Shown here: positions 30,771 through 32,704 of the stretch, piece after piece
Layout of the letters: each line of letters opens with the position of its first letter
Position numbering within the stretch: the first letter of the stretch is position 1
NCBI GenBank assembly: GCA_030448005.1
Contig: JAUJNT010000001.1
Span: 100,166 to 139,569 of the forward strand
Source: Thermoleophilaceae bacterium
GTDB taxonomy: Bacteria > Actinomycetota > Thermoleophilia > Solirubrobacterales > Thermoleophilaceae
DNA length: 39,404 bases
Direction of reading: 5' to 3'
Notes under the pieces: model-generated
Database searches by the model: none
The model's input: the letters and a program-made list of their open reading frames with translations, nothing else
Told to the model about the DNA's origin: nothing
Program-made: the position numbers and the translations under genes

Positions 30771-30800
30771 GCGGGCCTGGTCGCTGAGCGGCGGGATCTG

Positions 30801-30877
30801 GTCGGGCCAGACCTGACCTCTTGTTGTCGGTGGCCGGACCTACCTCTTGTTTGTCGGGCCAGACCTGACCTCTTGCT
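30801..30877. repeat. Three tandem ~26-bp palindrome-bearing units
   Basis: Units at 30801-30825, 30826-30852 and 30853-30877. The first and third share 23 identical bases starting GTCGGGCCAGACCTGACC; the middle unit is diverged. Each holds a near-palindrome of the form GGTC-n-GGCC-n-GACC. The array sits between the phosphoesterase stop and the DUF559 gene end. Confidence 0.75.
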
Positions 30878-30915
30878 CCTAAACTGCCCCCTCGGCTGTT
30901 GAGGAACAAATGGTC
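30866..30915. repeat. Imperfect direct repeat, copy B (flank of DUF559 gene)
   Basis: These 50 bases match 31855-31904 at 42 of 50 positions without gaps. This copy lies just beyond the DUF559 gene's stop and joins the tandem array. Translated in the gene's orientation it still resembles the gene's N-terminus, so it may be a relic of a second, lost copy. Confidence 0.75.
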
Positions 30916-30932
30916 TTCGATACACCCATCGG

Positions 30933-31910
30933 TCAATGCCGCGTCAGCATTCGACCTGCCCTGCCGAGCAGGTTGACCACCGTCGCTACCACCTCGTCAG
31001 GACTGTGCACGAGCTCTTGGTCGGTGAAGCGGACGGGATCGTACCCGGCGAGTCGGAGCACGCGATCCCGGCGGCGGTCCTCGACGAAGGCGTGCGGACT
31101 GAGGTGGTGGTAGCGGCGGCTGTCGAGCTCGATGACCAGGCGGCTGGCACGCCAGAGGCAGTCGACCTTGATCTCCTCGCCGGGGATCGGCACGTGGACG
31201 TTGAGCTCCGGGCGCTCCACACCGGCTCCGTCGAGGAGGGCCAGGAAGAGCTCCTCGAGGCCGCTGTGAGTGACTGTGGCACCCAGATGGTGTCGCTCGA
31301 CAAGCTTCCTGAGCCGTCTGGCGCCGTGGTGTCCGCCTGCCCGCTCGAGCACGTCGAGGAGAGAGCGGGTGTCGAGCAACCCGAGAATCCAGCCCTGCTC
31401 ATATGCCCTCTCGAGGGGGCGAGGTGTGGCCACTGCCGCGAAGTCCAGCATCGTCCGGGACGGACTTGTGCACGGGATGCCAGCGTTCACGCACCTGTCA
31501 CGAGGGAGAAGGATCGCGGTGTGGCGGTCGATTCCCCTGAGCTTGCGCCCCCTCTGCCCTGCCGCCGTGACGTCGATGCGAGGGCGCGAGCTTCGCATGA
31601 GCCCGAGGAGCATTGCAGCGTCGCGGTGGCTCAATACGGCGCCCGGCCCGCAGGCGCGCACGGCCGCAAGCCACCTGCCACGCAGGCTGAGCAAGGGATC
31701 GCCGACCGCATACACCCCCGGATAGAGCCGGTGAAGCGATCCGCGGGCCGACCGGTTCTGGATTGCCGCGCGGGAGAGCCCCAGGGCGAGGGGATCCTGA
31801 GTGGTCAGGACCCCGTCCTGAGCCGCCGAGAGGTCTGCAACCGCCCCCTCGACGTGACCTCTTGTTCCTGAACGGCCCCCTCGGCGGTTTTCGAACAACT
31901 GGTCTGCCAT
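30933..31910 (-). CDS. AbiEi-like N-terminus plus DUF559 endonuclease-like protein
   Basis: A 325-residue protein. Residues about 27-75 form a winged-helix like the AbiEi antitoxin domain (LSAAQDGVLTTQDPLALGLS, then LHRLYPGVYAVG). Residues about 225-310 resemble the DUF559/Vsr-type PD-(D/E)XK nuclease fold (EEIKVDCLW, LVIELDSRRYHH, RRRDRVLRLAGYDPVRFT), with Asp and Glu in the expected places. Such genes are numerous in actinobacterial genomes and their role is not settled: antitoxin, DNA-repair nuclease or defence accessory have all been suggested. There is no toxin (AbiEii) partner nearby. The start ATG at 31910 and the first 17 codons lie within a repeat that also occurs downstream, so the true start is uncertain; TTG at 31898 is the other option. 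The gene stands alone among repeats, which suggests a duplicating or mobile history. Confidence 0.82.
   Translation of the reverse strand: MADQLFENRRGGRSGTRGHVEGAVADLSAAQDGVLTTQDPLALGLSRAAIQNRSARGSLHRLYPGVYAVGDPLLSLRGRWLAAVRACGPGAVLSHRDAAMLLGLMRSSRPRIDVTAAGQRGRKLRGIDRHTAILLPRDRCVNAGIPCTSPSRTMLDFAAVATPRPLERAYEQGWILGLLDTRSLLDVLERAGGHHGARRLRKLVERHHLGATVTHSGLEELFLALLDGAGVERPELNVHVPIPGEEIKVDCLWRASRLVIELDSRRYHHLSPHAFVEDRRRDRVLRLAGYDPVRFTDQELVHSPDEVVATVVNLLGRAGRMLTRH
31855..31904. repeat. Imperfect direct repeat, copy A (5' end of DUF559 gene)
   Basis: Direct repeat partner of 30866-30915 at 42 of 50 identity. It covers the first codons of the DUF559 gene, so the gene and about 0.95 kb of sequence are bracketed by the two copies. 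Confidence 0.75.
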
Positions 31911-32603: not shown

Positions 32604-32704
32604 CCGGGCGCCAGACCGGCGTACAGACGCCACCGGGCACCCGGGCGCCAGCCGCCGCCGGCAGCCGGGCGCCCGGGACCGGCGTGCAGCCGCCGCCGGC
32701 AGCC
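32604..32704. repeat. GC-rich degenerate direct repeats, non-coding
   Basis: The 17-mer AGCCGCCGCCGGCAGCC occurs at 32650 and 32688. CCGGGCGCC followed by ACCGGCGT(A/G)CAG occurs at 32604 and 32665. The 226-base gap from 32485 to 32710 has no other feature I can support. Confidence 0.5.

Follow-up and report, generated by a model that had tools for sequence, protein, structure and literature searches.

The window analysed here, a stretch of 39,404 nucleotides from a contig of a Thermoleophilaceae bacterium (JAUJNT010000001.1), contains a DUF559/AbiEi-like gene situated between two similar blocks of DNA. This arrangement raises the question of what the blocks are and how they are related to the gene that they flank. 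Recounting of the ungapped identity between 30866-30915 and 31855-31904 gave 42 of 50 positions, in agreement with the preliminary description of the locus, and the similarity can be extended to 65 nt at 80% identity. The gene is located on the minus strand, so the 31855 block lies at its 5' end and the 30866 block just past its stop codon. The natural unit of the repeat is 49 bp. In the 3.2-Mb genome its best non-self match is the second copy (E 4e-10). The locus is formed by the following features:

30933..31910, minus strand: gene of an AbiEi-like/Vsr-like nuclease fusion, an open reading frame of 325 amino acids (Pfam, PADLOC, AlphaFold2)
31287..31853, minus strand: AbiEi-antitoxin fold, residues 20-208 (structure match to 6y8q and 1zel)
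30951..31271, minus strand: Vsr/EDxHD-type nuclease domain, residues 214-320 (structure match to 3r3p and 1cw0)
31856..31904, minus strand: 5' palindrome of 49 bp, GACCAGTTGTTC...GAACAAGAGGTC, overlapping the gene start; proposed AbiEi-type operator with 23+3+23 geometry (PMC7319586)
30867..30915, minus strand: 3' palindrome of 49 bp, the second copy, 17 bp past the stop codon and identical to the 5' copy at 41 of 49 positions
30799..30876, minus strand: three units of ~26 bp, each opening with the outer half-site block (A/G)CAAGAGGT, the first overlapping the end of the 3' palindrome

The protein is matched by the Pfam families AbiEi_4, DUF559 and MTES_1575 as well as by the AbiEi models of PADLOC (E 4e-23); NCBIfam gave no match for it. 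A 306-residue construct was modelled with AlphaFold2 from an alignment of 52 sequences, with a mean pLDDT of 93. The AbiEi half of the model (residues 1-189 of 306) superimposes on AbiEi from S. agalactiae (6y8q; Z 13.8, 182 residues, rmsd 4.1) and on Rv2827c from M. tuberculosis (1zel; Z 10.1). The nuclease half (residues 195-301) superimposes on the catalytic domain of I-Bth0305I (3r3p; Z 12.9, rmsd 2.2) and on Vsr (1cw0; Z 10.1). Six residues, E200, D231, E242, D244, H249 and D259 in the numbering of the construct, are invariant in 52 of 52 homologues and correspond to acidic and histidine positions that characterise this nuclease fold. Since these catalytic-type residues are invariant, the nuclease domain is probably active. 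No gene of the AbiEii (DUF1814) toxin was seen beside the window gene, where three neighbouring ORFs have no Pfam match.

Each window copy of the 49-bp unit is palindromic, though imperfectly, as 16-17 of the 23 arm positions pair. Both copies read GACCNNTTGTTC...GAACAANNGGTC, with small departures. The placement of the first codons of the gene inside one copy was confirmed: the reading frame passes through the 5' palindrome with its first ~19 codons. The three ~26-bp units beside the 30866 copy are real as well; they look like repeated half-palindromes and not like a separate array, and may be comparable to composite REP arrays. The 10-mer AGACCTGACC, proposed earlier as the core of a mobile repeat, had to be discarded. 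Otherwise it is a chance word in the window genome: the other sites checked lie in unrelated sequence and have no common context. Elsewhere in the window, a GC-rich stretch (32649-32704) contains two exact direct copies of the 18-bp sequence CAGCCGCCGCCGGCAGCC, with starts 38 bp apart.

AbiEi binds two 23-bp inverted repeats located 3 bp apart (PMC7319586), and the 49 bp of the window palindrome equal the length of this operator. The same geometry is found exactly in a bracket palindrome of genome G001 (locus L100; 23 + ATA + 23) and in one of genome G066 (L114; 23 + 3 + 23). Among the bracketing palindromes, the sequences of which are mostly unrelated, the arms lose complementarity between offsets 24 and 25 (~0.5-0.6 before, ~0.3 after), irrespective of the choice of axis (K = 14, 18, 24 or 32). 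An odd axis is present in about three quarters of them, not in all. In the copies from genomes G111 and G207 each half-site harbors an inner and an outer conserved block, with a variable and poorly paired middle; in G111 the mid-arm pairing is not kept, the positions being often unpaired. This block pattern fits the footprint of a protein on duplex DNA better than the formation of a hairpin. The long, conserved repeat of genome G221 shows hardly any palindromic symmetry around the axis used, and counts against the general reading of the palindromes as parts of a module with the gene. The centre of the 5' palindrome is mostly separated from the start of the AbiEi domain by a multiple of three (-15 to -30), as would be expected if translation regularly included a part of the palindrome or if the start codon lay close to its centre.

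The gene family is present in 43 of 148 sampled genomes of Actinomycetota at a strict cut-off. At the 5' end, 74 of 167 homologues from the same order carry a 49-bp palindrome in which at least 17 of the 23 positions pair, against one in gene bodies and none in shuffled sequences. At a local alignment score of at least 40, 29 of 169 genes but 0 of 129 other ORFs of the same loci are bracketed by matching palindromes on the 5' and 3' sides (Fisher p 3e-8), and mismatched pairs of 5' and 3' sequences give an expectation of ~0.1 each in direct and inverted orientation. The window gene has a bracket score of 65, while the 99.9% level of the null distribution is 38. In other orders of Actinomycetota, brackets with a score of at least 45 were detected in 17 of 24 testable loci, some of them with tandem copies. 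At three loci (L329 of G096, L308 of G101 and L319 of G144) the brackets can be tandem arrays with at least two palindromic units on each side. Against the modular reading, about half of the homologues have no strong 5' palindrome, and a strong 3' match is missing in most of those from the same order.

The palindromes are private to their genes. Five family genes of G001 are associated with five different palindromes, and the bracket palindromes of loci L097 and L098 occur nowhere else among the matches listed for their genome. For pairs of AbiEi domains with identity above 60%, the similarity of half-sites is 0.67, compared with a background of ~0.42. In the sequences compared, the palindrome follows the AbiEi domain of the protein that it flanks, although proteins of 70% identity can carry quite different palindromes, which counts against the modular reading.

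Absence of the repeat from the rest of the genome and from other DUF559 loci, which would have refuted the preliminary description on its own terms, was not observed, as the repeats recur at both. The module has few copies in the window's own genome: besides the two bracket copies there are three solo copies (C1:49631, C2:109695 and about C8:337555) and one palindrome of the window type at the 5' end of the paralogue L021. The solo copies surfaced when the 5' copy and later families were used as queries; a genome search with the 3'-side DNA 30790-30930 returned no further copies, and the solo copies found later show the low sensitivity of that search. A second palindrome family in this genome, that of the gene L022, has five dispersed copies. 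Words of the type GATCGGGC are repeated upstream of the L022 gene (~1435-1525, G000:C4), and similar words are present on both sides of the L021 gene.

Dispersal is much more pronounced in some relatives. The families of G001 and G066 each occupy at least about 30 places per genome, and among the matches listed further dispersed families were seen in G056, G025, G078, G049 and G026, as well as in G221, G207, G125 and G159; many of the genomes are draft assemblies, and the copy numbers are mostly lower bounds. In the high-copy genomes the copies have sharp borders and mostly unrelated flanks. The complete genome G111 contains one family gene at the cut-off used and, including the two that form the bracket itself, 15 verified copies of the bracket palindrome. 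In two complete genomes, where the neighbours were assigned by simple heuristic ORF calling, most of the classifiable copies lie between convergent genes, a few nucleotides from the stops. A similar placement, between genes near stop codons, has been described for REPs (PMC3733652). In G066 some dispersed palindromes (L255, L259 and L260) share a longer adjoining stretch, CGTCCGTCTTCCGTCACACCCCC, which suggests a larger composite repeat.

One site carries signs of movement or conversion. A palindrome of G066, together with flanking bases, is situated in frame inside a conserved gene (L253:1903-1951, G066:C22; orthologues L266-L274). Congeners were compared at the same codon: the palindromes of G091, G093, G078 and G070 share the outer arms and differ in the inner sequence, G056 has a palindrome of its own family, and G050 and G072 have other palindrome-like sequences. 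There is no palindrome at this site in G094, and the pattern of matches suggests that there is none in G048 either. The comparison of polymorphic sites concerns this single site, which may either have been hit repeatedly or have carried palindromes that were converted to the sequence of the resident family.

Taken together, these observations make it more likely than not that the window gene belongs to a class of autoregulated, REP-like nuclease-palindrome modules, in which the palindromes act as operators and, probably, also as spreading sites of cleavage or homing. The repeats would be binding sites of the very protein that they flank. Two subunits would bind the 49-bp site through their AbiEi-like parts, one 23-bp inverted half-site each side of the 3-bp spacer. 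The 5' copy, which overlaps the gene start, would serve as an operator for autorepression, and the matching copy past the stop codon would complete the bracketed module. The nuclease part may nick or cut at or near the palindromes. Repair from other copies could then copy palindromes, and occasionally the entire module, into new positions and could also convert old palindromes to the current family sequence, homogenising them. The outcome would be private, genome-specific and dispersed palindromes of the REP-like kind. The 3' palindrome and the dispersed copies need no nuclease if another agent copies the palindromes, and this counts against the proposed role of the nuclease in spreading.

Several other explanations share a part of the evidence. 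The palindromes may be nothing but operators of an AbiEi-like repressor, with the 3' and dispersed copies constituting a regulon or titrating the repressor and with nothing mobile. The AbiEi-operator geometry, the 5' position overlapping the gene start and the footprint-like conservation all agree with such purely regulatory sites. The dispersed copies of the complete genomes, however, are mostly found between convergent genes at stops and not at promoters, one copy lies inside a coding gene and is missing in a congener, and the numbers of sharply bordered copies in some genomes, as well as the retention of a nuclease with conserved catalytic-type residues, also speak against regulation as the sole function. 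We consider regulation alone unlikely, with a small but real chance of being the whole explanation. The observation that the sequences can fold and that many copies follow stop codons would suit transcription terminators or RNA hairpins insulating the gene. Yet in folding, single window copies have just a modest advantage over shuffled sequences (z-scores of -1.4 and -2.6, calculated as DNA), mid-arm pairing is lost in G111, and a constant length of 49 bp with unrelated sequences is better accounted for by a protein site, which makes terminators or hairpins very improbable.

It is also conceivable that another agent moves the palindromes and that the nuclease gene is a passenger or parasite lodged between pre-existing ones. 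ISPpu9 sits in REPs (PMC8450116), and in high-copy genome G001 another gene is flanked too: two palindromes bracket an alpha/beta hydrolase-like ORF, the second of them 2 bp past its stop (L242:1666-2610, G001:C183). A lodged passenger would, however, not be expected between palindromes that are found nowhere else among the matches listed, as at L097 and L098, nor between palindromes that co-vary with its own AbiEi domain. Moreover, the Y1 transposase (PF01797) is absent from nine of the ten palindrome-bearing genomes tested, including that of the window (the tenth, G025, has three), so the dispersed palindromes of these nine genomes are not explained by RAYTs. A passenger gene is therefore quite unlikely in our estimation. 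The same result divides the earlier suggestion of a REP-like mobile repeat: it was right as to the kind of element, given the solo copies and the families dispersed in relatives by the same kind of gene, and not supported as to the link with Y1 transposases. Two other origins were proposed there. A gene-capture site is unlikely, the palindrome being tied to one gene family and its sequence following the AbiEi domain. A relic of a tandem paralogue would account for two copies around one gene, and DUF559 genes are indeed multi-copy, but the homology of the 3' copy does not extend past the palindrome and the short repeated units, with no coding similarity seen beyond 49-65 bp; solo copies occur elsewhere without such a gene, and the pattern is repeated with different sequences at dozens of loci. 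Such a relic is hardly credible.

The nuclease-palindrome module resembles several known systems. In REP-RAYT systems (REPtrons) a single gene is bracketed by palindromes that form private dispersed families and co-diverge with the protein (PMC2817692, PMC3733652). The present arrangement shares the flanking of one gene by two palindrome copies, the dispersal of cognate private palindromes between genes, often near stop codons, and the co-divergence of protein and palindrome. In contrast to REP-RAYT, the bracketed gene encodes an AbiEi-type binder with a Vsr-type nuclease instead of a Y1/HUH transposase, the palindromes are of ~49 bp with 23+3+23 geometry, and they open with unrelated sequences, lacking a GTAG/CGTC head. 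The arrangement works like REP-RAYT but the protein machinery is unrelated, and for this reason it was not classed as a RAYT system. With the AbiEi antitoxin of the type IV toxin-antitoxin system AbiE the window protein shares the full two-domain fold and a palindrome of the same geometry at the gene start; it differs by the fusion to a nuclease, by the lack of an AbiEii partner next to the window gene and by the duplication of the putative operator at the 3' side and its dispersal. The homing endonuclease I-Bth0305I, an EDxHD/Vsr-like enzyme that forms a dimer on its target of almost 60 bp (PMC3943268), has the same nuclease fold and the conserved acidic and histidine residues. Unlike it, the window gene was not seen in an intron or intein, and its presumed targets would be multi-copy palindromes that also flank the gene.

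No report of an association of palindromes with DUF559-type genes was found in the open-access literature. So far, REP-like palindromes have been linked with a single class of enzymes, the Y1 tyrosine transposases, and for some REP families no mobiliser is known. A broader proposal, to which we assign slightly less than an even chance, is that a second and independent kind of REP system exists in actinobacterial genomes: an operator-binding homing endonuclease of AbiEi-Vsr type, for which its own 49-bp operator would be a selfish, copyable target, may spread and homogenise private palindromes without a transposase. A large family of uncharacterised genes is now tied to private palindromes, the length of which corresponds to the known binding geometry of their own DNA-binding domain. 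This offers a testable function for the AbiEi_4-DUF559 proteins, and the many natural pairs of a protein and its 49-bp site can serve to study changes of DNA specificity. Should the nuclease be the driver of the spread, the REP way of life would have arisen independently in these modules, with the operator being at the same time the homing site.
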